A stretch of DNA of 34,860 nucleotides from Terriglobales bacterium (GTDB lineage Bacteria > Acidobacteriota > Terriglobia > Terriglobales > Acidobacteriaceae), in assembly GCA_035543055.1 (NCBI GenBank), contig DATKKJ010000065.1, forward strand, positions 1 through 34,860. Direction: 5' to 3'. The position numbers were made by a program, and so were the translations under genes. The notes under the pieces were generated by a model, which ran no database searches, had not been told where the DNA came from, and worked only from the letters and a program-made list of their open reading frames with translations. Numbering within the stretch: the stretch's first letter is position 1; each line of letters opens with the position of its first letter. Below, one piece after another: positions 12,457 through 34,860 of the stretch.

Positions 12457-13752
12457 ATGGCAGTGGAGCTGCCGCCGGCCGACCTGATGACCGACCGGCG
12501 GAAACACGAGCGCCGGCTGGCGGTGAAAGAACTGATCGGGCTGCAACTGGGGGCCACCAATCGCGCCATCGTCGTCGATCTGAGCGAAGGCGGGATGCGG
12601 GTGCAGGCGGCGGAGCCCGTGCAATTGCTGCCCTCGTCGCTGGTCCGCTTCCAGATCCCGGGCTGCGCGGAACCGGTAGCGGCCAGTTGCGAATTGGCGT
12701 GGGCCGATCATTTCGGCAAGGCGGGACTACGCTTCACCGGGTTCTCCGGCAATTCCCTTCTTGATCTGCGGCGCTGGCTGAAGCAGACGACCGCCCCGGT
12801 GCTGGTGGAAAAACGCGAAGCGGTCCGTCCGCCGCGGACGCTCCCCTTGCCGATCCCGAAGCCGCAGGTGGTGACGGGCACCGGGCCGAGGGTTGCGGTT
12901 TCTGCTCCGGTCCGCGCTTCGCCGGGCGAGACGCCCGGCGCTACACAATCTCCGAAAGTGGAAACGTTCGAGGCGCGACTGCAGGCCGCGGCCCAGCACC
13001 TGATGACCCTGACGTCGGCGGAAGGGGCGGTGGTGGCGCTGCGCAGCGGGCAGCAGATCGTGTGCCGGGCGAGCGTGGGCAGGGCGCCGGCGCTGGGGGC
13101 GGTGGTGCCCTCCGACTCCGGGCTGACGGGCGAGTCCCTGCGGGAGCGCATGGTGGTGTGGTGCCGTGATACCGATAACGATCCGCGGGCGAACCGGGAG
13201 GCGTGCCAGAAGCTGCGCCTGCGTTCGACGGTGCTGGCGCCGGTGCTGCGCCAGAGCAGCGTACAAGGGCTGCTGGCGGTGTTCTCGTCTCAGCCCGACC
13301 GCTTCGACCGCGGCGACGTGATGGCGCTGACCCGGATGGCGGACCTTGTCGCCGAGATGCTGGGCAAGCCGGTAGGAGCCACGAGCGCGGCCGCGCTTGC
13401 CCCGACGGCGATGCCGGCCGCCGCCCCCAAGCCGACTCGGGAAGCGGCCCTGCGCCTGCCCCAGCCGGTGAACGGGATCCTGCGCTGCGACGCCTGCGGA
13501 CATCCCAACCCGGAACGGGCGCAGGTGTGCGAGCGCTGCGATGTCCCGCTGCGGGTCCCGGAACTGGAGGCGTTGCTGGAGCGCGATCCGAAGATCTCGA
13601 AGCTGCTGCTGGCGTTGTTCATGCTGGCGGCGCCGCTGGGAAGTTTCTATGCCGGGCACGAGCTGGGAACGCTGCTGCGCAAGCCAGCGGTGCAGCAAGT
13701 GCAGCCCGTGAAGGCAGATGTCGCAAGGCCGGAGTTGGCAAGACAGATGTAG
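12457..13752 (+). CDS. PilZ-GAF-zinc ribbon membrane-anchored protein
   Basis: A 431-residue multidomain signalling protein. Domains in order: PilZ (about 10-110) with RxxxR at Arg15-Arg19 and DLSEGG at Asp41-Gly46, so both c-di-GMP motifs are intact; a Pro-rich linker; a GAF-like domain (about 168-310, FEARLQAAAQHLMTL...GLLAVFSSQPDRF); a CxxC-N10-CxxC zinc ribbon (Cys344, 347, 358, 361); and one C-terminal transmembrane helix (about 383-402). The ATG at 12457 follows GGAGG. It is likely a c-di-GMP-responsive sensor or adaptor at the inner membrane, possibly acting on EPS or pili. The linker residues SPGETPGAT are encoded by a palindromic repeat. Confidence 0.85.
   Translation: MAVELPPADLMTDRRKHERRLAVKELIGLQLGATNRAIVVDLSEGGMRVQAAEPVQLLPSSLVRFQIPGCAEPVAASCELAWADHFGKAGLRFTGFSGNSLLDLRRWLKQTTAPVLVEKREAVRPPRTLPLPIPKPQVVTGTGPRVAVSAPVRASPGETPGATQSPKVETFEARLQAAAQHLMTLTSAEGAVVALRSGQQIVCRASVGRAPALGAVVPSDSGLTGESLRERMVVWCRDTDNDPRANREACQKLRLRSTVLAPVLRQSSVQGLLAVFSSQPDRFDRGDVMALTRMADLVAEMLGKPVGATSAAALAPTAMPAAAPKPTREAALRLPQPVNGILRCDACGHPNPERAQVCERCDVPLRVPELEALLERDPKISKLLLALFMLAAPLGSFYAGHELGTLLRKPAVQQVQPVKADVARPELARQM
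12921..12946. repeat. GCCGGGCGAGACGCCCGGC hairpin inside PilZ-GAF gene
   Basis: An 8-bp perfect stem with an AGA loop, followed by GCTAC. It resembles the element at about 4364-4384 (GGCGAGACGCCAGCGGTAC). It is in frame and codes for part of the PilZ-GAF linker (about residues 155-163). Confidence 0.65.
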
Positions 13753-19775: not shown

Positions 19776-20156
19776 GTGGCACGAAAACGCGGACCGTCGG
19801 ACAAGCGGCAATGGCAACGTATCCCCTTGGCAATACCGGTCTTCATTCGCGGGGTTGACCTGCAGGGTAACGAGTTTCTGGAGTTTGCCACGGCGTTGAA
19901 CATCAGCGCCGGGGGCGCCCTGGTGGCTACCCGACGACAACTGCCGCGCAGCTCGAGGCTTTCGCTGGAGATCCCGGTCGCTCCCGTGCCCCGTGCCATG
20001 AGCCTGCCGAAGGCCGCCCGCAAGCTCCGGGCTACGCTGGTGCGGGTCAACATGGAGCAAGGCTTCCAGCTGTGGGGACTCAAGTTCGCCAACAACCTGG
20101 CGGCCAAGGGGCGGCGCGCGCGCCGCAGCAAGAAGAACGCCCTTTCCTACGCGTGA
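19776..20156 (+). CDS. PilZ domain protein
   Basis: A 126-residue single PilZ domain. RQWQR gives RxxxR and NISAGG gives the (N)xSxxG motif, so c-di-GMP binding is plausible. The C-terminus is strongly basic (KGRRARRSKKN). The GTG at 19776 is the only sensible start, with GAGG about 8 bases upstream. It is the first plus-strand gene of the EPS locus, 135 bp before the export gene, and likely links c-di-GMP level to EPS production or export. A sigma54-type site lies upstream. Confidence 0.85.
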   Translation: MARKRGPSDKRQWQRIPLAIPVFIRGVDLQGNEFLEFATALNISAGGALVATRRQLPRSSRLSLEIPVAPVPRAMSLPKAARKLRATLVRVNMEQGFQLWGLKFANNLAAKGRRARRSKKNALSYA

Positions 20157-20966: not shown

Positions 20967-21914
20967 ATGTACAAGAAATTCTTCAACCTGACCAAGAACC
21001 CGTTCGAGATCAGCCCCGACCCGTACTTCTTCTATCCCACAAAGCGGCACTTGGAGGCGCTGGCGGCCCTCAGCTACGGGATCACCAGCAACAAAGGGTT
21101 CATCGTCATCACCGGCGATGTGGGCACGGGCAAGACCCTGCTGGCGCGCTACCTGCTCAGCTACCTGACCCGCAACAACATCAGCTGCGCCTACGTCTTC
21201 AATACCCGGCTCTCGGACATCGAGTTCCTGAAATACATCATGGCGGATTGGGGGTTGCCCTTCGGCAACGGCAAGGCGGATGCCTTGCTGAAGTTGAACG
21301 AGCACCTCATCGCGCGCTTCAAACGCGGTCTGTCCACGGTGCTGATCGTGGACGAGGCCCAGGATTTGAGCTGGGAGGTGATGGAAGAGATCCGGCTGCT
21401 GACCAACCTGGAGACCCATCAGCAGAAGCTGCTGCAGATCGTGCTCGTCGGCCAGGAGGAGCTGGAGACGATGCTCGATTCCGTGAACCTGCGGCAGCTG
21501 AAGCAACGGATCGCACTGCGCTGCCGCCTGCAGCCGCTTACCCTGGAAGAAGCCCGCGACTATATCCTGCAGCGACTGACGCGAGCCGGGGCGACCAAGA
21601 GCGCCGCCCAGAGCCTTTTCCCGGAGCCGGTGATGGCCGCGATCTATCGCAACGCCCGTGGCATTCCCCGGCTGATCAACACCATCTGCGAGAACGCGCT
21701 GATCACCGCCTTCGCCGGCCAGACGCGCACCGTCACCGAAGGCATGGTCGAGGAAGTGGCGACTGATTTCAATCTCAACGCCAATCCCATGGCGTCACCG
21801 CAAGTTCCCACCGACCTGCTCGCCGACCAGGATGCGATCACCCGCTTGATCAAGCTGTTCCGGTCGATGGACGTGGACCAACTGCCCGGCGGGAAGAAGT
21901 TCCGGCCGCAGTAG
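20967..21914 (+). CDS. ExeA-like AAA ATPase of EPS/PEP-CTERM locus
   Basis: A 315-residue ATPase of the ExeA/GspA-like group that is regularly found in PEP-CTERM/exosortase EPS loci. MYKKFFNLTKNPFEISPDPYFFYP is the family's N-terminal signature. Walker A is GDVGTGKT (50-57), Walker B is VLIVDEAQ (125-132), and sensor and lid regions follow (LKQRIALRCRLQPLTLEEARDYI). No transmembrane segment or peptidoglycan-binding domain is present, unlike ExeA itself. It presumably energises or remodels the envelope export complex. It is in an operon with the export gene 15 nt upstream. The start ATG is certain from the signature; the ribosome site is weak. Confidence 0.92.
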   Translation: MYKKFFNLTKNPFEISPDPYFFYPTKRHLEALAALSYGITSNKGFIVITGDVGTGKTLLARYLLSYLTRNNISCAYVFNTRLSDIEFLKYIMADWGLPFGNGKADALLKLNEHLIARFKRGLSTVLIVDEAQDLSWEVMEEIRLLTNLETHQQKLLQIVLVGQEELETMLDSVNLRQLKQRIALRCRLQPLTLEEARDYILQRLTRAGATKSAAQSLFPEPVMAAIYRNARGIPRLINTICENALITAFAGQTRTVTEGMVEEVATDFNLNANPMASPQVPTDLLADQDAITRLIKLFRSMDVDQLPGGKKFRPQ

Positions 21915-22165: not shown

Positions 22166-22858
22166 ATGAAAACGAGACTGCTTTCTGTACTTGCCCTGGC
22201 GGCAGTGGTCATGGTTTTGTCCGCCGGTGCAAGCGCCGACACAACCCCCGGTCTGCTGATTTACGACTGGGGTACCGGCAGCTTCCTGTACATCACGGAT
22301 GGCGGAGTAAACGACTCGGACGGTCCGGGGAACGGTTCCATCACGTTCGTCGGTTCCATCGGCAACTTCGTCCTGACCGTGGACGTCGGGCAAGCATCGC
22401 CCCCGCTGTCTGCCAACAGCGCGGACCTGAGCTTCTCCGTCACCAACACCAGCAAGGTCGCGGACACGCTCGCGATCGTGTTCTCGACCGCGGGCTACAC
22501 GACCAGCGGCCTTTCCAACAACTCCATCGGTGGGACCCAGCAGGGGACGTTGCAATGGGGCCTCTGGCAAGATAACAGCAACACCGGTTGCCTGTCGGAC
22601 ACCACTTGTCCAGGCTTCAACCTGTTCCAGCACGACCTGAGCGGCAGTCCGTACAGCGACACCGCGGATGTGACGGTGGGCAATGGCGGCGATCCCTATG
22701 CCCTGGAACAGTCCGTCTGGGTTCATTTGGACGGCACCACTGGTCACAACGTCACGACCGGCGATTATTTCCTGCACGTGCCCGAGCCGGCCAGCTTCTC
22801 GCTGCTGGCGTTCGGGTTGATCGGCCTGAACGGACTTCGCAAGAAGTTCCTGGCCTAA
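22166..22858 (+). CDS. PEP-CTERM sorting-signal protein
   Basis: A 230-residue exported protein. A signal peptide ends ASA (about residue 24). The body is rich in Gly, Ser, Thr and Asn with two cysteines in SDTTCPGF-like surroundings, typical for extracellular matrix proteins. The C-terminus is a textbook PEP-CTERM signal: VPEPAS (from residue 205), a hydrophobic stretch (FSLLAFGLIGLNGL) and a basic end (RKKFLA). Such proteins are cleaved at the PEP motif by exosortase during EPS export. The ribosome site is GAGGAAGAGG. It is transcribed alone from a sigma54-type promoter and is followed by a terminator. No exosortase gene is in the window. Confidence 0.95.
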   Translation: MKTRLLSVLALAAVVMVLSAGASADTTPGLLIYDWGTGSFLYITDGGVNDSDGPGNGSITFVGSIGNFVLTVDVGQASPPLSANSADLSFSVTNTSKVADTLAIVFSTAGYTTSGLSNNSIGGTQQGTLQWGLWQDNSNTGCLSDTTCPGFNLFQHDLSGSPYSDTADVTVGNGGDPYALEQSVWVHLDGTTGHNVTTGDYFLHVPEPASFSLLAFGLIGLNGLRKKFLA

Positions 22859-26996: not shown

Positions 26997-27548
26997 ATGA
27001 GTAGTGCGGTCCAACTGGTATCGGCCATCCCGCAGAGCGGTCCGCTGGCGGAACCACCGCAGTGGTACGCGATCCGGACACGCTCCCGGTTTGAGAAGAA
27101 GGTGGCAGCGGAACTCGAGCATCGCGGGATCGAGAGCTTCTTGCCGGTCCAGCAGCAGGTCCGCAAGTGGAGCGACCGCCGGAAACTGGTCAGCTTCCCC
27201 TTGTTCCCGGGCTATGCCTTCGTGCGCATCGCGCCCGTGCCCCGGATGCGGGTGTTGGTGGCGAGCGTCCCCGGGGTGGTCAGCTTCGTGGGCACCCATC
27301 ATAGGCCGATGGCGATCCCGGCCGGCGAGATCGAGCACATTCAGACCCTGGTCCTGAATAACATCCAGGTTACGGGGGAGCCGTTCCCGAGGATCGGCCA
27401 GAGGGTACGCATTTCGGGAGGCGTCCTGGACGGCCTGGAAGGCGTTCTGGTAGGCACGCGGGGTGAACGGCGCTTCGTGGTCTCCGTGTGTACCATCGAG
27501 CGCTCGATCTCCTTCTGTATCGAAGGTTATGAACTGGAGGCAATCTGA
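26997..27548 (+). CDS. NusG-like antiterminator (UpxY/RfaH type)
   Basis: A 183-residue specialised NusG paralogue. The NGN domain (about 22-115) begins QWYAIRTRSRFEKKVAAELEHRGIESFLPV and has FPLFPGYAFVRI. The KOW region (about 125-160) reads GQRVRISGGVLDGLEGVLVG. Such paralogues promote full-length transcription of long polysaccharide operons. GAGGG precedes the ATG. Its TGA overlaps the next ATG (TGATG), so it is translationally coupled to the barrel gene and heads the operon barrel-chain length-kinase. No ops/JUMPstart-like element was recognised in the leader. Confidence 0.92.
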   Translation: MSSAVQLVSAIPQSGPLAEPPQWYAIRTRSRFEKKVAAELEHRGIESFLPVQQQVRKWSDRRKLVSFPLFPGYAFVRIAPVPRMRVLVASVPGVVSFVGTHHRPMAIPAGEIEHIQTLVLNNIQVTGEPFPRIGQRVRISGGVLDGLEGVLVGTRGERRFVVSVCTIERSISFCIEGYELEAI

Positions 27549-28828
27549 TGGCTGCATCCAGATACGCAATCGCGATGCTCATGACCCTGGCGCTGGTCCC
27601 GGCAGCCTGGTCTCAGTCTGCGGTTCCGTCGCCGTTGAATGGAAACCGGGAAACGCCCCGTCTCAGCGGCGACACCGAGCTGAACAACCTTCTGTCGGTC
27701 GACCTGGGGATCTCGAGCCACTTTGACGACAACGCCCTCAACGATAATCAGCACAAGGTCTCGAACTTCATCTACCAGTTTGCGCCGCGCGTCTCCTGGG
27801 ACGTGTCGCGGGCCCATTGGAGCTTCTCCGCCGATTCGCTGACCACGATCTCGTACAGCTACAACCTTCCTCAGTACGGGCGCTTCGGCGAGAACCTCAT
27901 CGTGGGCTTCGATTTTCGACCGGTCCGGAGGCTGGACTTCCGGTTGCGAAACAGCTTCAACCGGAGTTCGGACCCGTTCACCCGGTATCCCGGCTCCAAC
28001 GTCCCGGATTTCGAAAACCCGCCGAACCAGTCGATCTTAGGTCCGCCGGCGACGAGGACGTCGGACCAGGTGGGAATGGACGTCACGTATCAACTCGGAC
28101 CACACACCAACCTGGGGGCGAGCGGGAGTTTCGCCCTGGTCAACTACGAATCTTCCACCGTGACCCCCAGCTTTGTTCAACCGGACACCTATAGCGTGAG
28201 CGGGCGGGCGTTCGTCACTCATCAGTTCTCACCGCGGCACACCAGCAGCCTGGCGTACGACATCCAGAGGTTTACCTTCAGTACCAGCCTGGGTACGACC
28301 ACCCATTCGATCGCGTACTACCACACCGTCACGCTGACTCCCAGCATGTCGCTCTCGGTGTGGGGCGGGCCCGAGTATGTGCGCACCAGCGCGGGATTCC
28401 TGCCCCAACCCATCCAGGGCTCGTGGTCCTGGACGGCTGGGGCGCAGTACGGTTGGACCCACAACCGCACCGGGGTGACCGCGAGCGTGGTCCGTCAGGT
28501 CAGCGATGGCGGCGGGCTGGGATATGCGGTCCAACTGGTGAGCGCCAATGTTGGCTTGCGGCAGCGGTTGAGCCGACGCTGGGTCGCAAGTGCTTATGTG
28601 AATTACAACGTCAATCACTCGGTCAGCGGATTCGGCAATTTCGGTACGCGTTATTTCTCGGGGAATGCCAGCGTCACACGCACATTCACTCCGCATCTGG
28701 GGCTGACGGTCGAATACTGGCGCGCCCGCCAAGGGAGGTCCACGGGGCTCGGATTGCTGGTCCCCAGCGACCACAATCGGGCGGCGGTCACGCTTCACTA
28801 CACATTCTCGCGATCGATTGGGAGCTAA
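27548..28828 (+). CDS. Outer-membrane beta-barrel protein of EPS locus
   Basis: A 426-residue exported protein. Signal peptide MAASRYAIAMLMTLALVPAAWS, then a succession of amphipathic strands with aromatic girdles (FIYQFAPRVSWDVSRAHWSFSADS, FSPRHTSSLAYDIQRFTFS, AAVTLHYTF) and a near-terminal aromatic residue, as in outer-membrane barrels. It resembles the PEP-CTERM system-associated outer-membrane protein group and may form or support the EPS exit pore with the short export protein. It overlaps the NusG-like gene by one base at TGATG and ends 5 nt before the chain-length gene. Confidence 0.85.
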   Translation: MAASRYAIAMLMTLALVPAAWSQSAVPSPLNGNRETPRLSGDTELNNLLSVDLGISSHFDDNALNDNQHKVSNFIYQFAPRVSWDVSRAHWSFSADSLTTISYSYNLPQYGRFGENLIVGFDFRPVRRLDFRLRNSFNRSSDPFTRYPGSNVPDFENPPNQSILGPPATRTSDQVGMDVTYQLGPHTNLGASGSFALVNYESSTVTPSFVQPDTYSVSGRAFVTHQFSPRHTSSLAYDIQRFTFSTSLGTTTHSIAYYHTVTLTPSMSLSVWGGPEYVRTSAGFLPQPIQGSWSWTAGAQYGWTHNRTGVTASVVRQVSDGGGLGYAVQLVSANVGLRQRLSRRWVASAYVNYNVNHSVSGFGNFGTRYFSGNASVTRTFTPHLGLTVEYWRARQGRSTGLGLLVPSDHNRAAVTLHYTFSRSIGS

Positions 28829-28833
28829 AGCAC

Positions 28834-30414
28834 GTGGATAACTTCAAGGAAACACAAGGCGTCGAAGTAGAACAGTATTGGGCCATCCTGCGCCGTCGCC
28901 GGTGGTGGTTGATCGTGCCGGTCGTGGCCACCTGGGCTGCGCTGATGGGGGCCAGCTGGTTCTTCCCCGAGAAATACCGCTCGGAAACCGTGATCCTGGT
29001 AGAGCAGCAGAAAGTGCCGGTGCAGTTCGTCACGCCCAACGTGAGCCTGGACATCCAGCGCCGCCTGCAGACCATGAGCGAGCAGATCCTGAGCCGGACC
29101 CGTCTGCAGCACATCATCGAGACCTTCCAACTGTATCCCCGGGAACGCAAGCACATGTCAATGGACGCTGTGATCGAGATGATGCGCAAGGACATCGACA
29201 TCGATCTGGTCAAGAGCCCGGGGAAGACCGACGTGCTCACCGGGTTCAAGATCGCGTACTCCGGCCCCACCGCAGCCATCGCGCAGCGTGTGACCGGCGA
29301 GTTGACGTCACTTTTCATTGAAGAAAACCTCAAGAATCGCGCGCAACTCTCGGAAGACACTACTGCCTTCCTGCAGACCCAGCTGACGGACGCGGGCAAG
29401 GACCTGGCGGAGCAGGAACAGCGGATGCGGGAGTTCAAGAACAAGTACCTGGGTGAGCTGCCGGAGCAGTTGCAGAGCAACCTGCAGATCCTGGCGGGAT
29501 TGCAGAGCCGCTTGGCGTCGGCCACCGAGAGCCTGCACCACGCGGAGCAGCAAAAACTGTACCTGGAATCGCTGCGGGGCCAGTACCGGTCGCTGGGAGG
29601 CGAAGGCGCAAACCTGCCGGCGCTCGACCAGCAACTGGACAAGCTCAAAGAGCAATTGACCCAGTTGAGCGCAAAATACACGCCCAAGCATCCGGACGTG
29701 GTGAGGATCCAGGAAGAGATCGCGAAGACGGAGCAGCTGAAGAAGGACCTGCAGGCGGACGCGAAATCCGGCAAGGAGCGGCCGTCCGACCTGGCCGACG
29801 TCAGCCTGTCGCCTGACGCGGACCCGAAAAAGGTGCGTCCGTTCATGCAGATCGAAAGCCAGTTGAAGGCGACCGAACTGGACGTCACGAATCGCAGGAG
29901 GGAGATCGCTGGTCTCCAGGCCCAGATCGAAAGCTACCAGGGGCGGCTGAACCTGACCCCGGTTCGGGAGCAGGAGCTGGGTGATGTCATCCGCAACTAC
30001 CAGAGGTCGCGTGAGAACTACGATTCGCTGTTGGCCAAACAGCAGCAATCGGCGCTGGCCACCAACCTGGAGAGGCGGCAACAGGGGGAAAACTTCCGTG
30101 TCATCGATCCCCCGAGCCTGCCGGAGAAGCCTTACTCGCCCGACCGCTTCAAGCTCAGCTTGGCGGGGATTGGGGCAGGATTTGCCATTGCCTTTGTTCT
30201 CCTGGTGGTAATGGAGTTCGTGAATCCGCGGATCGACCGCGAGGGGCAGTTGAAGGAGCTGGTGGCGGCCCCTGTGCTGACCACGGTCCCAGGCCTGTGG
30301 ACCGCGGCCGAAGAATCGGCGAAGCGCAGGTGGGGGATCCTCCAGGTGGCAGCGGCAACGCTGTGCTTCATCTTCATCGCTTCGGCCACAGTGCTGGTGT
30401 ACTACTTCGGTTGA
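28834..30414 (+). CDS. Wzz/GumC-like chain-length determinant
   Basis: A 526-residue inner-membrane polysaccharide co-polymerase. N-terminal helix WWLIVPVVATWAALMGASWF, a Wzz domain (YRSETVILVEQQKVPVQFV), then long coiled coils (about 165-420). Two C-terminal helices follow (LAGIGAGFAIAFVLLVVMEF and the final ILQVAAATLCFIFIASATVL). The layout fits the PEP-CTERM/XrtA chain-length protein family. No kinase domain is fused; the kinase is the next gene. The GTG at 28834 is required because an upstream frame only shadows the barrel gene; GGGAG lies about 10 bases before it. Confidence 0.93.
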   Translation: MDNFKETQGVEVEQYWAILRRRRWWLIVPVVATWAALMGASWFFPEKYRSETVILVEQQKVPVQFVTPNVSLDIQRRLQTMSEQILSRTRLQHIIETFQLYPRERKHMSMDAVIEMMRKDIDIDLVKSPGKTDVLTGFKIAYSGPTAAIAQRVTGELTSLFIEENLKNRAQLSEDTTAFLQTQLTDAGKDLAEQEQRMREFKNKYLGELPEQLQSNLQILAGLQSRLASATESLHHAEQQKLYLESLRGQYRSLGGEGANLPALDQQLDKLKEQLTQLSAKYTPKHPDVVRIQEEIAKTEQLKKDLQADAKSGKERPSDLADVSLSPDADPKKVRPFMQIESQLKATELDVTNRRREIAGLQAQIESYQGRLNLTPVREQELGDVIRNYQRSRENYDSLLAKQQQSALATNLERRQQGENFRVIDPPSLPEKPYSPDRFKLSLAGIGAGFAIAFVLLVVMEFVNPRIDREGQLKELVAAPVLTTVPGLWTAAEESAKRRWGILQVAAATLCFIFIASATVLVYYFG

Positions 30415-30480: not shown

Positions 30481-31323
30481 ATGAGCAAGATTTTTGAAGC
30501 GCTACAGAAGTCCCAATCACAGGGAGACCGGACGACGGCCATCCCGGAGATGGCGGCGGAAGCGGTGAGTCCTCTCGCGGCACCGGCGGCTGATCTCTCG
30601 GCACTGGACCAATGTGCGATTTTGTCCGTCATCGATACCCCGAAGTCGCGGCTGGTGTCACTGAGTGATGAACGCAGCCTCGGGGCCGAGAAGATGCGCG
30701 TCTTGAGCACCCGGCTGCGACATCTGCGTCACCCCCGGCGCTTCACCAAGTTGCTGATCTCCAGCTGCATGAAGGGCGAAGGCAAGAGTGTGGTTTCCGC
30801 TAACCTGGCGATCACCCTCGCCAAGAACGCCAGCCAGCGGACCTTGCTGGTGGATGGCGACCTTCGCCAGCCTGGGCTGAGCCGCATGTTCGGCAGCGAG
30901 AAGCTGCCGGGCATCGCGGATTGGTATCGTGACCAGGTCCCCATCCATCAGTTTCTCCGGCGATCCCAGGATTTTCCTCTCTGGTTCCTGCCCGCCGGCA
31001 AGGTTCCCGGCCAGCCCCTGGAGGTCCTGCAGTCGGACCGGTTGGCGCAGCTCATGACCGAATTGGGCGAGGTGTTTGAATGGGTGATCGTCGATTCGCC
31101 GCCGCTGTCTCCGCTGGCCGATTCCACCATCTGGGCCGCACTGACTGAAGCCACCGTGCTGGTGGTCCGCGAGGGACAGACTCCGACCAAGCTGTTACGG
31201 AACGTGCTGGATTCGTTCCAGAAGGACCGGTTGGTCGGCGTCGTGGTCAACGAGTCGAAGAGCGCTGAACGCAAGTACTACGACTTGTACTATCGCAAGA
31301 GTCGCAACGGAGACCATCCGTAG
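30481..31323 (+). CDS. CpsD/CapB-type BY-kinase
   Basis: A 280-residue cytoplasmic tyrosine kinase partner of the chain-length protein. It begins MSKIFEALQKSQ, typical for PEP-CTERM-type kinases. Walker A is MKGEGKS (Lys102; Lys replaces the usual Pro before GEGK), Walker A' is LLVDGDLRQP (Asp125, Asp127) and Walker B is WVIVDSPP (Asp205). The C-terminal tyrosine cluster KYYDLYYRKS (Tyr266, 267, 270, 271) is the expected autophosphorylation site. GGAGAG precedes the ATG. It lies 66 nt after the chain-length gene in the same operon. Confidence 0.93.
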   Translation: MSKIFEALQKSQSQGDRTTAIPEMAAEAVSPLAAPAADLSALDQCAILSVIDTPKSRLVSLSDERSLGAEKMRVLSTRLRHLRHPRRFTKLLISSCMKGEGKSVVSANLAITLAKNASQRTLLVDGDLRQPGLSRMFGSEKLPGIADWYRDQVPIHQFLRRSQDFPLWFLPAGKVPGQPLEVLQSDRLAQLMTELGEVFEWVIVDSPPLSPLADSTIWAALTEATVLVVREGQTPTKLLRNVLDSFQKDRLVGVVVNESKSAERKYYDLYYRKSRNGDHP

Positions 31324-31501: not shown

Positions 31502-31517
31502 TGGAAGTTGGATTGCT
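31502..31517 (+). promoter_or_regulatory. Candidate sigma54 promoter of sugar transferase
   Basis: TGGAAGTTGGATTGCT: GG (31503-31504), ten bases, GC (31515-31516) in a full TTGCT -12 box. The -24 box (TGGAAG) is weak. The ATG is about 20 nt past the expected start. Confidence 0.4.
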
Positions 31518-31548: not shown

Positions 31549-32730
31549 ATGGAAGGGGAACGCAGACCCGCGATGGCATCGACGCTGACCTCAAGACCCA
31601 GTGGAGCACCCTACAACGGCCTGATCCGCAACGTCGAGCGCATGCTGTCGGCGACCGGGACCCACACCCTCATCGGAGAGGAAATCTTCCTGGCCATGCT
31701 GTCCCAGGAGCGCAAGAGGTCGGAGCGCTCGGCGAAGCAATTTGTGTTGCTCTTGCTGGATGGGGCACAGGCGTTCGCCGCGGGAGCTGGGGAAGAGATC
31801 ACCCAGCAGGCGGTGGCCTCGCTCTCCACTTGTATCCGTGAGACCGACATCGTGGGCTGGTACGAAGAAGGGTCGGTGATCGGGGTCATCTTCACCGAGA
31901 TGGGCACCGCCAACGAAGGCGCGATCAAGATCATCCTGAACCGCGTGACCTCGGCCCTGCGGAACAACCTGAGCGTCCGTGACATCAATGCCATCTCGAT
32001 CTCGTGTCACCTGTATCCCGAGCAATCGGAGAAACACCGTCCGCAGAAGGTACGGCTGTTCTACCACGATGAGCATGTGGGCGCCGGTTCACGTACCGGC
32101 GCGCAGGTGATGAAGCGGGCCCTGGACATCGTCGGCAGCGCGACCGCGATCCTGATGCTCTCGCCCGTGTTCCTGGTGATCGCGGCTCTCATCAAGCTCA
32201 CGTCGAAGGGGCCGGTCCTCTTCCGCCAGAACCGGGTCGGGCAGTACGGAGCGCCGTTCACGTTCCTGAAGTTCCGCTCCATGTACCTGAACAGCGACTC
32301 CAAGATCCACCAGGAGTATGTGACCAGCTTCATCTCGGGTAAAGGCAAGCGGCACGCCTCGAAGGATGGCGGCATCTATAAGATCACGAACGATCCGCGG
32401 GTCACTCCGCTCGGCCGGTTCATCCGCCGCACCAGCCTGGACGAGTTGCCCCAGTTCTTCAACGTTCTGCGGGGTGACATGTCGCTGGTGGGCCCGCGGC
32501 CTCCGGTGCCCTACGAATTCGAAGCCTACGACGTGTGGCACCGTAAACGGGTCTTCGAAGTGAAGCCGGGCATCACCGGTCTGTGGCAGATCAAGGGGCG
32601 CAGCCGGACCAACTTCGACGATATGGTCCGCCTGGACCTGCAGTATGCGAGGAACTGGTCCATCTGGATGGACATCAAGATCCTGCTGCAAACCCCAGGC
32701 GCCGTGTTCTCCGGCGACGGCGCTTGCTGA
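31549..32730 (+). CDS. Initiating sugar transferase with degenerate GGDEF-like N-domain
   Basis: A 393-residue protein. The C-terminal half (about 186-393) is a polyprenyl-phosphate sugar-1-phosphate transferase: KRALDIVGSATAILMLSPVF membrane hairpin, VLFRQNRVGQYGAPFTFLKFRSM, LPQFFNVLRGDMSLVGPRPP and KPGITGLWQIKGRSR. It starts EPS repeat-unit assembly on the lipid carrier. Instead of the usual four N-terminal helices there is a soluble domain (about 30-170) that reads like a GGDEF fold: QERKRSERS...FVLLLLD...RETDIVGWYEEGSVIGVIF, with the GGDEF motif lost. It may sense c-di-GMP or only mediate contacts. The ATG at 31549 is chosen; one at 31573 follows GGAAGGGG more distantly. Confidence 0.9.
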   Translation: MEGERRPAMASTLTSRPSGAPYNGLIRNVERMLSATGTHTLIGEEIFLAMLSQERKRSERSAKQFVLLLLDGAQAFAAGAGEEITQQAVASLSTCIRETDIVGWYEEGSVIGVIFTEMGTANEGAIKIILNRVTSALRNNLSVRDINAISISCHLYPEQSEKHRPQKVRLFYHDEHVGAGSRTGAQVMKRALDIVGSATAILMLSPVFLVIAALIKLTSKGPVLFRQNRVGQYGAPFTFLKFRSMYLNSDSKIHQEYVTSFISGKGKRHASKDGGIYKITNDPRVTPLGRFIRRTSLDELPQFFNVLRGDMSLVGPRPPVPYEFEAYDVWHRKRVFEVKPGITGLWQIKGRSRTNFDDMVRLDLQYARNWSIWMDIKILLQTPGAVFSGDGAC

Positions 32731-32875: not shown

Positions 32876-33913
32876 ATGCTACGAGTAGGAGTGATCGGAT
32901 ACGGCTACTGGGGGCCGAACATCGTCCGCAATTTCCGCGGCCTGGAGGGCTCCCAGGTGGAGCTGGTTTGCGACCAGCGCGAAGAATCGCTGAAGAAGGC
33001 GAAGCACGCGTTTCCGGAAATCAAGGTCTGCAGCGACGCTTCCGAGGTCATCAACTCCCGCACCGTCGACGCCGTGGCCATCGTGACTCCGGTGTGGACG
33101 CACTACGAGCTGACCAGGGCGGCGCTGGAAAACGGCAAGCACGTCTTCGTCGAGAAACCGTTCACCGCCACCGTGGCCCAGGCCGAGGAACTGGTCGAGT
33201 TGGCGGAGCGCAAGCACCTGACCATCATGGTGGACCACACCTTCCTGTTCACCGGGGCGGTACGCAAGATCCGGGAACTGATCGACAAGGGCACCCTGGG
33301 CGACCTCTACTATTACGACTCGATGCGCGTGAACCTGGGCCTCTTCCAGCATGACGTGAACGTGGTCTGGGACCTGGCGCCGCACGACCTCTCCATCATG
33401 GACTACCTGATCACGGAGAAGGCCGAGGCGGTGGTCGCCACCGGGCAGGCCCACCTCAACGGGCACGAGGACATCGCTTTCCTCACCATCTATTTCCCCG
33501 GCAAGGTGATTGCCCACATCAACGTCAACTGGCTCTCGCCGGTGAAGGTGCGCACCACCCTGATCGGCGGCGAGAAGAAGATGCTGGTGTGGAACGACCT
33601 GGAAGCCGACGAGAAGATCAAGATCTACGACAAGGGCGTCGACATCAAGACCCAGGAGAACGTCTACCAGCTGTTGGTGAGCTACCGCTCGGGTGACATG
33701 TGGTCACCGCAGGTCGAGCAGGTCGAAGCGCTGAAGCTCGAGCTGGCCCACTTCGTGGACTGCGTCACCAACCGCAAGACTCCCATCAACGACGGCCTGG
33801 CGGGCCTGCGGGTGGTGAACATGCTGGAAGCCGCCCAGACCTCGATCAGCAACCGGGGCAAACTGGTCTATGTGCACGACACCCCGAAGGCGGCTACCGC
33901 CATCGTGCGGTAG
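32876..33913 (+). CDS. Gfo/Idh/MocA oxidoreductase (WlbA-like)
   Basis: A 345-residue NAD-dependent dehydrogenase. Nucleotide-binding motif VGVIGYGYWGPN at the N-terminus, then AIVTPVWTHYELTRAALENGKHVFVEKPF, with the catalytic-region Lys in EKP, and VDHTFLFTGAVRKIRELI as in WlbA/WbpB-type enzymes. These oxidise the 3-position of UDP-N-acetylglucosaminuronate. The two following genes are an acetyltransferase and an aminotransferase of the same pathway type, which supports the assignment to a 2,3-diacetamido uronic acid route. Substrate specificity remains inferred. Confidence 0.88.
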   Translation: MLRVGVIGYGYWGPNIVRNFRGLEGSQVELVCDQREESLKKAKHAFPEIKVCSDASEVINSRTVDAVAIVTPVWTHYELTRAALENGKHVFVEKPFTATVAQAEELVELAERKHLTIMVDHTFLFTGAVRKIRELIDKGTLGDLYYYDSMRVNLGLFQHDVNVVWDLAPHDLSIMDYLITEKAEAVVATGQAHLNGHEDIAFLTIYFPGKVIAHINVNWLSPVKVRTTLIGGEKKMLVWNDLEADEKIKIYDKGVDIKTQENVYQLLVSYRSGDMWSPQVEQVEALKLELAHFVDCVTNRKTPINDGLAGLRVVNMLEAAQTSISNRGKLVYVHDTPKAATAIVR

Positions 33914-33943
33914 GCTAGTCTGAACATTCGAGGGTTCCCGGAT

Positions 33944-34438
33944 ATGAATGAATATGTTTGCATCGCTCCCGACGTGAAGCTCGGGAAAGGCGTCAAGCTG
34001 GCAAAATTCATCAATCTGTATGGCTGCGAAGTGGGCGACGACACCAAGATCGGCGCCTTCGTCGAAGTGCAGAAGAACGCCAAGATCGGCAACCGCTGCA
34101 AGATCTCCAGCCATACCTTCATCTGCGAGGGGGTCACTATCGAGGACGAAGTATTCATCGGCCATGGCGTGACCTTCATCAACGATTCTTACCCGCGGGC
34201 CACCACGGAGTCGGGTGGCCTGCAGACCGAGGCGGACTGGAAGGTAGAACGCACGCTGATCAAGCGGCGCGCTTCCATCGGCTCGGGCTCGACCATTCTT
34301 TCCAACATCACGGTCGGAGAAGGCGCCATCGTGGGCGCCGGCAGCGTGGTCACTAAGGACGTCCCCGCTGACACCGTCGTCGCCGGCAACCCGGCGCGGA
34401 TCCTCCGCTCGCTGAAGGAGGCGGCTTCGTCGAAATAA
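33944..34438 (+). CDS. Hexapeptide-repeat N-acetyltransferase (WlbB-like)
   Basis: A 164-residue left-handed beta-helix acyltransferase with successive hexapeptide turns (VKLGKGVKLAKFINLYGCEVGDDTKIGAFVEV, VTIEDEVFIGHGVTFINDSYPRA). The C-terminal IGSGSTILSNITVGEGAIVGAGSVVTKDVPADTVVAGNPAR is the family hallmark. The FINDSYPRA segment matches enzymes that acetylate the 3-amino group of nucleotide-linked uronic acids. It lies 30 nt after the oxidoreductase and 1 nt before the aminotransferase, so the three form an operon. Confidence 0.9.
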   Translation: MNEYVCIAPDVKLGKGVKLAKFINLYGCEVGDDTKIGAFVEVQKNAKIGNRCKISSHTFICEGVTIEDEVFIGHGVTFINDSYPRATTESGGLQTEADWKVERTLIKRRASIGSGSTILSNITVGEGAIVGAGSVVTKDVPADTVVAGNPARILRSLKEAASSK

Positions 34439-34439
34439 T

Positions 34440-34860
34440 ATGGCCCAGAACATCCCTTTCCTTGATCTGGTCACTCCCCACAAGCAATTGGAAGAGGAGC
34501 TGGTGGCGGCATTCCGCGAGGCGCTGCACACCGCTGGCTTCGTGGGCGGCGCGGCGGTCAGCGGGTTCGAGAACGAATTTGCCCGCTTCTGCGACACCCG
34601 GCACTCGGTGGCCGTCAACAGCGGCACCGATGCGCTGCGGTTTGCGCTGGCGGCGGTCGGCGTGAAGCCGGGCGAGGTCGTAGTGACGGTGCCGAACACT
34701 TTCATCGCGACCACCGAAGCCATCTCCCAGGTCGGGGCGCTGCCGGAATTCGTGGATGTGGACGAGGCCACCTACACGATGTCGCCCAAGCGCTTGCGCG
34801 AATACCTGGAGCAGGGCTGCACCCGGGATTCTGCCGGGCATCCGGTGAGCAAGCGCAGCG
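34440..34860 (+). CDS. DegT/DnrJ/EryC1 aminotransferase, N-terminal part (WlbC-like)
   Basis: A partial gene: 140 codons to the right edge with no stop. The ATG at 34440 comes one base after the previous stop. The start MAQNIPFLDLVTPHKQLEEEL, the substrate/PLP region VAVNSGTDALRFALAAVGVKPGEVVVTVPNTFIATTEAI and VDVDEATYTMSP are typical of PLP-dependent sugar aminotransferases. The PLP lysine lies beyond the edge. Position after WlbA-like and WlbB-like genes suggests amination at C3 of a UDP-sugar acid. Confidence 0.9.
   Translation, partial: MAQNIPFLDLVTPHKQLEEELVAAFREALHTAGFVGGAAVSGFENEFARFCDTRHSVAVNSGTDALRFALAAVGVKPGEVVVTVPNTFIATTEAISQVGALPEFVDVDEATYTMSPKRLREYLEQGCTRDSAGHPVSKRS

Follow-up and report, generated by a model that had tools for sequence, protein, structure and literature searches.

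A degenerate GGDEF domain fused to an initiating sugar-phosphate transferase, a candidate c-di-GMP receptor at the first step of exopolysaccharide assembly

Does the transferase that starts exopolysaccharide (EPS) assembly in this locus carry its own c-di-GMP receptor? The window, by which we mean the whole stretch of 34,860 nucleotides analyzed here from an Acidobacteriaceae member of the Terriglobales, encodes at positions 31549-32730 (forward strand, as for its domains and the PilZ, ExeA-like, beta-barrel, Wzz, kinase-like and nucleotide-sugar genes described below) a protein of 393 amino acids in which a degenerate GGDEF domain is fused to a monotopic sugar-phosphate transferase core. Its open reading frame has a TTG at 31513 as the listed start, a first ATG at 31549, and a stop codon ending at 32730.

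The transferase core (residues 189-387; 32113-32709) matches PF02397 with an E-value of 4.6e-69 and contains a hydrophobic (re-entrant) helix and an intact DELPQ motif (residues 298-302). The window protein thereby possesses the PF02397 core, the hydrophobic helix and the DE dyad of a monotopic sugar-phosphate transferase, and we take this helix and this dyad to have their usual functional roles. TIGR03025 is the best-scoring NCBIfam model (304 bits, above its cut-off); WbaP is the nearest solved sequence relative of the core (E=5e-53), followed at some distance by diacetylbacillosaminyl-1-phosphate transferases (1.7e-29). The sole strongly hydrophobic stretch of the fused protein, at about residues 191-225, lies inside the core. 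No such segment was found in residues 1-185, and the N-terminal membrane bundle is consequently absent. Equally, PF13727, the DUF that is a hallmark of WbaP-type proteins, is not among the Pfam matches listed up to an E-value of 10. The fusion thus shares its catalytic core with the large monotopic transferases of the WbaP/WcaJ type, but where these are described to possess a four-helix membrane bundle and a DUF (PMC10942596), it has a GGDEF domain.

That this N-terminal domain is a GGDEF fold rests on Pfam, on a family profile and on a structural model. PF00990 scores 24.4 bits with residues 38-181, 23.0 bits with residues 1-200 and 20.5 bits with the whole protein (22.0 bits for the fused protein in the genome search), so that the gathering score of 23.8 bits is passed by the trimmed domain only, and narrowly. 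Among 22 family members, PF00990 detects 10 at E<=1 and misses 12, and it gave no match at E<=0.1 in four loci from outside the phylum (L004, L005, L006 and L025). The GGDEF homology is for this reason easily missed in routine annotation, and such proteins are likely annotated simply as sugar transferases. A profile built from 22 fused domains (A1) has GGDEF chains as its best matches in the PDB (7e6g, 1.3e-5; 5euh, 1.2e-4; 4zve, 0.006); the 22 sequences listed comprise 14 GGDEF proteins, seven Rpn11-type proteins, which appear from 0.009 downwards and the best of which matches through a GWY stretch, and one Cas13d.

The structure of the domain was predicted from a five-sequence alignment. Its pLDDT values are 78-89, by blocks of ten residues, over residues 41-160 and poor elsewhere, and the GGDEF-fold domain itself spans residues 41-158 (31669-32022). 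All 50 matches listed by Foldseek for this model are GGDEF proteins (best E-value 7e-6, SiaD), with moderate TM-scores of about 0.4-0.6 for domain-sized targets. All 50 matches listed by VIA are GGDEF proteins as well, in a comparison that re-aligns matches from a search of the Foldseek kind; its best Z was 13.4 (6khu, rmsd 3.2, 122 aligned), and PleD reached a Z of 11.3 (rmsd 3.2-3.3, 132 aligned). When 33 motif-bearing GGDEF domains of the same family are aligned with the window domain, RETDIVGWYEEGSVIGVIF stands in register with their R..D..RYGG(D/E)EF, one residue being inserted. An earlier note on this DNA had recognized a soluble domain with the strand/helix pattern of GGDEF proteins and had placed the same stretch at the R..D..RYGGDEF position, and both readings are borne out; the structure prediction and fold search that it had proposed returned GGDEF proteins, and no unrelated fold appeared among the matches listed.

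The active-site motif of the domain has been lost, just as the earlier note had claimed. At the position expected for RYGG(D/E)EF, the alignment places WYEEGSVI (residues 104-111; 31858-31881), of which W104 recurs in 109 and Y105 in 96 of 110 fused domains, the remaining positions being variable. The alignment holds 126 domains: 110 distinct fused ones, no pair of which is more than 95% identical, and 16 without a detected transferase, namely 13 stand-alone domains and three pieces at contig ends or a frame break. GG(D/E)EF is absent from all 125 domains that cover the site (110 fused, 13 stand-alone, and two of the three pieces, the third of which ends before it). The first metal-binding Asp is present in 63 of the 110 fused domains versus 33/33 ordinary GGDEF domains, and the FK..ND..GH..GD loop is missing from the window domain, which lacks the GG(D/E)EF motif and the metal/GTP residues of an active diguanylate cyclase.

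The I-site residues have been kept. A helix with E54, R57 and R60 (31708-31728) retains each of these residues in 110/110 fused domains. RETD (residues 97-100; 31837-31848) forms the RxxD motif of the I-site, with R97 found in 109 and D100 in all 110 fused domains, and R132 (31942-31944) is Arg or Lys in 107. R60 aligns with R198 of WspR, the second I-site arginine, and R97/D100 align with WspR R242/D245. R132, which presumably corresponds in position to PleD R390, is located 35 residues past R97, matching the distance of PelD R402 from R367; this spacing varies slightly across the fused-domain family, through gaps near 126-128. WspR was reported to bind c-di-GMP with R242xxD245 and with R198 from a neighboring domain (PMC2270323), and PelD to require R367, D370 and R402 (PMC2170427). 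In R97, D100, R60 and R132 the window domain accordingly has the RxxD and the further arginines of an I-site receptor without an active site, a combination of I-site residues that active GGDEF domains commonly have as well. Across the 110 fused domains, conservation is highest at seven residues, E54, R57, R60, D100 and G103 (110/110 each) together with R97 and W104 (109/110 each), in a family whose members are 20-42% identical to the window domain (median 35%) and have a median pairwise identity of 36% among themselves. Exceptions are few: one fused domain lacks both R97 and K/R132, two others lack K/R132, and the stand-alone copy in the locus of the first has Glu in place of D100.

How much weight this retention can carry depends on the ordinary GGDEF domains. 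In a control set of 33 motif-bearing domains, drawn from 37 loci of the same family as the window, RxxD is present in 30, E54 in 26, R57 in 29, the R60 equivalent in 32 and K/R132 in 23. Since ordinary GGDEF domains share them, the I-site residues are inherited and usual, and their retention is no special mark. We therefore rejected the argument that I-site conservation proves c-di-GMP binding, and part of this conservation may be structural or inherited. The informative point, as far as the alignment can tell, seems to be that these residues are near-invariant despite a lost catalytic site and low overall identity. At 31855-31860 of the window, a near-invariant Gly-Trp pair (G103-W104) occupies a place that is mostly taken by Ala/Cys-Arg in ordinary GGDEF domains; position 104 is Trp in the fused domains with the one exception counted above and Arg in 33/33 ordinary ones. 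As both residues are new and near-invariant, the fused family has acquired a feature peculiar to itself, and their location outside the I-site suggests an extra or different function.

We lean, if only slightly, towards viewing this catalytically dead GGDEF domain with its kept I-site as a PelD-like c-di-GMP receptor in the initiating transferase, acting perhaps via dimerization. Judged by its residues, the domain could plausibly bind c-di-GMP and control the first EPS step. What we observe ends with the retained I-site, and every later link of the mechanism is one that we infer. The fused transferase would start the EPS repeat unit by transferring a sugar-phosphate onto the lipid carrier, and its GGDEF-like domain would bind c-di-GMP as PelD and BcsE do. 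Bound across two I-sites, to which, as in WspR, one copy contributes RxxD and the other R60, c-di-GMP would then pair or re-orient the two copies, and in the simplest model this pairing of two fused proteins would switch on the first step. We guess at activation, and not inhibition, from the examples of PelD and EpsW. Where a stand-alone copy is present, it might join the same complex.

Dimerization is proposed as a control point by the precedent of EpsZ-EpsW from Myxococcus xanthus, where, in keeping with our reading of the fusion, a signaling protein acts on the initiating transferase: EpsW stimulates EpsZ, and modeling indicates that it does so through favoring the EpsZ dimer (PMC12802240). 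EpsW is a separate receiver protein, however, whereas the GGDEF-like domain is covalently attached. WbaP from S. enterica is described as a dimer (PMC10942596), and the fusion has, in place of the N-terminal part of such proteins, a kind of domain capable of c-di-GMP-mediated pairing; small one-domain transferases are reported to be monomeric (PMC12802240), and dimer control of the fused core is for this reason not assured.

Among regulatory proteins, PelD resembles the fusion domain in its dead GGDEF, in its RxxD with a third Arg 35 residues on, and in its control of a polysaccharide (PMC2170427, PMC8461298). Yet PelD is a membrane protein in its own right and includes a GAF domain, whereas the fusion domain sits in the initiating transferase itself, without a GAF domain (none among the Pfam matches listed up to an E-value of 10) and without N-terminal helices. 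BcsE has likewise lost its catalytic residues and is reported to bind c-di-GMP by its I-site (PMC8461298), but it belongs to the cellulose system, as a soluble protein of the cytoplasm, and is not a transferase of a lipid-linked pathway. Receiver-domain fusions to small transferases (O'Toole et al. 2021, PNAS, as cited in PMC12802240) also put a regulatory domain on the core; in that citation receiver domains are named, not GGDEF, and the survey itself may list more. Among the titles and abstract openings listed in searches of the open-access literature, which did not extend to the survey by O'Toole et al., none described a GGDEF-transferase fusion; the terms "phosphoglycosyl transferase" and "GGDEF" co-occur in one open-access paper, on Acinetobacter phages (PMC12507263). 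The fusion is real, conserved and easily missed, and it would add a variant to the known dead-GGDEF polysaccharide regulators.

Three other explanations have to be weighed. The domain might be a purely structural dimerization or docking module that replaces the membrane bundle and the DUF, with its charged residues holding the fold and no nucleotide being sensed; its protein partner could be the kinase-like ATPase, Wzz or the stand-alone copy. Such a module would account for the same residues being conserved in ordinary GGDEF domains and for the family-specific G103-W104 off the I-site. It would also suit the usual position of the gene beside those for the kinase-like ATPase and Wzz, the stand-alone copies in 12 of 20 compared loci (12 picked for having them), and the occupation of the same slot by another transferase in five sister loci. 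A docking module, however, need not keep RxxD, R57, R60 and K/R132 jointly at 97-100% while the median pairwise identity is 36%, and we consider this explanation rather unlikely.

A nucleotide other than c-di-GMP, such as 3',3'-cGAMP, GTP or ppGpp, could also be the ligand, bound at the old active site or at the I-site. GGDEF domains that make cGAMP are described (PMC6456294), PleD structures with ppGpp and pppGpp (9g85, 9g86) are among the structure matches listed, and the I-site features seen here fit c-di-GMP and cGAMP alike; the GTP site, on the other hand, has lost its catalytic residues, and another guanine nucleotide or dinucleotide strikes us as improbable. That the domain is no GGDEF relative, being instead an alpha/beta domain of another kind or a resemblance that arose by chance, is scarcely credible and is refuted as far as computation reaches. 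It could draw on the Pfam score near the cut-off, on the members and the four loci that PF00990 misses and on the moderate TM-scores, but GGDEF proteins lead both the sequence and the structure matches, including all 50 listed for each structure comparison, and the alignment is in register through RxxD.

Returning to the c-di-GMP receptor, one may go further and entertain, tentatively and with more doubt than confidence, a widespread unannotated class of initiating transferases in which a cyclic dinucleotide would clamp two dead GGDEF domains at their I-sites to form the active dimer, and in which the stand-alone protein of some genomes would compete or pair with the fusion and so set the threshold. 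Post-translational control of lipid-linked pathways is described as incompletely understood, and the c-di-GMP control of synthase-type polysaccharides as well characterized (PMC12802240). If the proposal is true, this latter control has a counterpart at the first lipid-linked (Wzx/Wzy) step; a built-in dead GGDEF domain would place c-di-GMP control on that step, on one soluble and testable domain.

The window genome has the parts of a c-di-GMP system, with eight GGDEF matches over the cut-off, 27 PilZ matches and seven matches to HD_5, which we take to be HD-GYP-type. A search of this genome for EAL gave no match, and c-di-GMP may be degraded there by HD-GYP enzymes only. The PilZ proteins that the earlier note had seen in the locus are indeed present: two PilZ matches (12493-12783 and 19800-20108) fall into a PilZ-GAF protein (12457-13752), which is the more distant one, and a PilZ-domain protein (19776-20156) about 0.8 kb before the gene for an ExeA-like ATPase. 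With the PilZ proteins of the window as queries, phmmer (E<=1e-5) gave no match in 20 relative loci, each 5.6-18 kb long. Because phmmer is insensitive with divergent PilZ queries, this speaks only weakly against PilZ as a conserved partner.

Directly upstream of the fusion, and a frequent neighbor of it, lies the gene for a kinase-like ParA/CbiA-type ATPase (30481-31323), presumably BY-kinase-like. It is preceded by genes for a Wzz/GNVR chain-length protein (28795-30414) and for an outer-membrane beta-barrel-like protein (27548-28828), so labeled from sequence reading, with relatives in other fusion loci. An AAA ATPase (20967-21914; AAA_22 by Pfam), which we assume to be ExeA-like, is a frequent neighbor in relatives and distant here. 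Downstream follow nucleotide-sugar genes that read as Gfo/Idh-, acetyl- and aminotransferase-like (32876-34859) and that are often found beside the fusion. The 20 relative neighborhoods compared, 12 of them chosen for holding a stand-alone copy and several cut by contig ends, share a usual order of beta-barrel, Wzz, ExeA-like, kinase-like ATPase and fusion/stand-alone genes, often with the Gfo/Idh-, acetyl- and aminotransferase-like genes; some genes of the full order are missing in some of these loci. At 22166-22858, inside the EPS region, the window encodes a small protein that looks secreted and bears a PEP-CTERM signal (PF07589), which fits an exosortase-type locus.

The fusion recurs widely among relatives, which were surveyed as the earlier note had suggested. 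With the N-terminal 200 residues of the window protein as query, a search of 396 genomes from the phylum gave matches at E<=0.001 in 29, and in 19 of these, from five families, the match lies inside a transferase-bearing ORF. A profile search of the window's family detected the fused ORF in at least 91 of 300 genomes, a lower bound because at most 13 candidates were scored per genome, and pieces of it in three more. Overall, 220 of the 300 genomes have profile matches at E<=0.001; the weaker ones we take to be ordinary GGDEF proteins, and one of them overlaps a PF00990 match. Stand-alone copies are a minority feature, present among the strong matches listed in at least eight of the 300 family genomes and in four genomes of other families.

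Beyond the phylum, the best 80 matches of a cross-phylum contig scan, which are not representative of other phyla, include four that cover most of the N-terminal domain: L005 (labeled Deltaproteobacteria), L006 (Fibrobacter), L004 and the remote form L025. The L004 contig is labeled as a DPANN archaeon and yet encodes a bacterial-type EPS transferase fusion, which is probably a binning error. The domain of L025 (Fibrobacterales) scores 17.4 bits with the profile (search space of one) and sits on a very long branch, and its transferase core falls outside the fused branch of the core tree; L025 is perhaps a second, separate fusion. A family-profile scan of viral contigs gave 15 candidate stretches, none of them confirmed, and a search of plasmids gave no match.

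Among relatives for which the search with the N-terminal 200 residues gave no fusion, 12 have a strong Wzz match; five of their loci were compared, and in these sister loci a transferase-core ORF of 460-511 residues follows the Wzz-ExeA-kinase genes. These five slot ORFs gave no domain-profile match, and the one whose sequence was read resembles a large transferase that has membrane helices at its N-terminus; the fusion thus fills a slot that an ordinary transferase takes in the sister loci. A quick tree built from 135 cores places the fused ones (53 rows, including one duplicate) together on one side of a branch with an SH-aLRT of 100, which suggests one old fusion followed mostly by descent. 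The sister-locus transferases match the fused core with phmmer E-values of 4e-28 to 9e-35, whereas the fusions of the 20 relative loci reach 3e-78 or better. Of the earlier note's claim that the priming transferase had lost its membrane-helix N-terminus, the absence of helices from residues 1-185 stands, whereas trimming in place from a large transferase was rejected; given the separate core branch and the weak resemblance to the sister-locus transferases, the whole gene was probably exchanged.

In ten of the 12 loci chosen for a stand-alone dead GGDEF copy, the copy (an open frame of 142-209 aa) lies together with a fusion, and the other two have no fusion inside the compared stretch. In eight of the 12 the copy directly follows the kinase-like gene, with the fusion next or 1.3-3 kb later. 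One locus has a second stand-alone copy of 151 aa on the opposite strand. In a quick domain tree, the stand-alone label needs seven changes, of which well-supported branches force only one, and the stand-alone form likely arose repeatedly. All four loci in which the genes between the stand-alone copy and the fusion were analyzed (L169-L172) have an ATP-grasp gene there, and one of these (L172) also an amino-acid kinase gene, hinting at amino-acid decoration of the polymer. In another of these four (L171; 5568-8195, reverse strand), an ORF of 876 aa combines an aspartokinase-like part, so read from the sequence, with a GGDEF-like domain and the transferase; it is either a true triple fusion or the result of a lost stop codon, and the counterpart of its aspartokinase-like part in L172 is an AA_kinase by Pfam.
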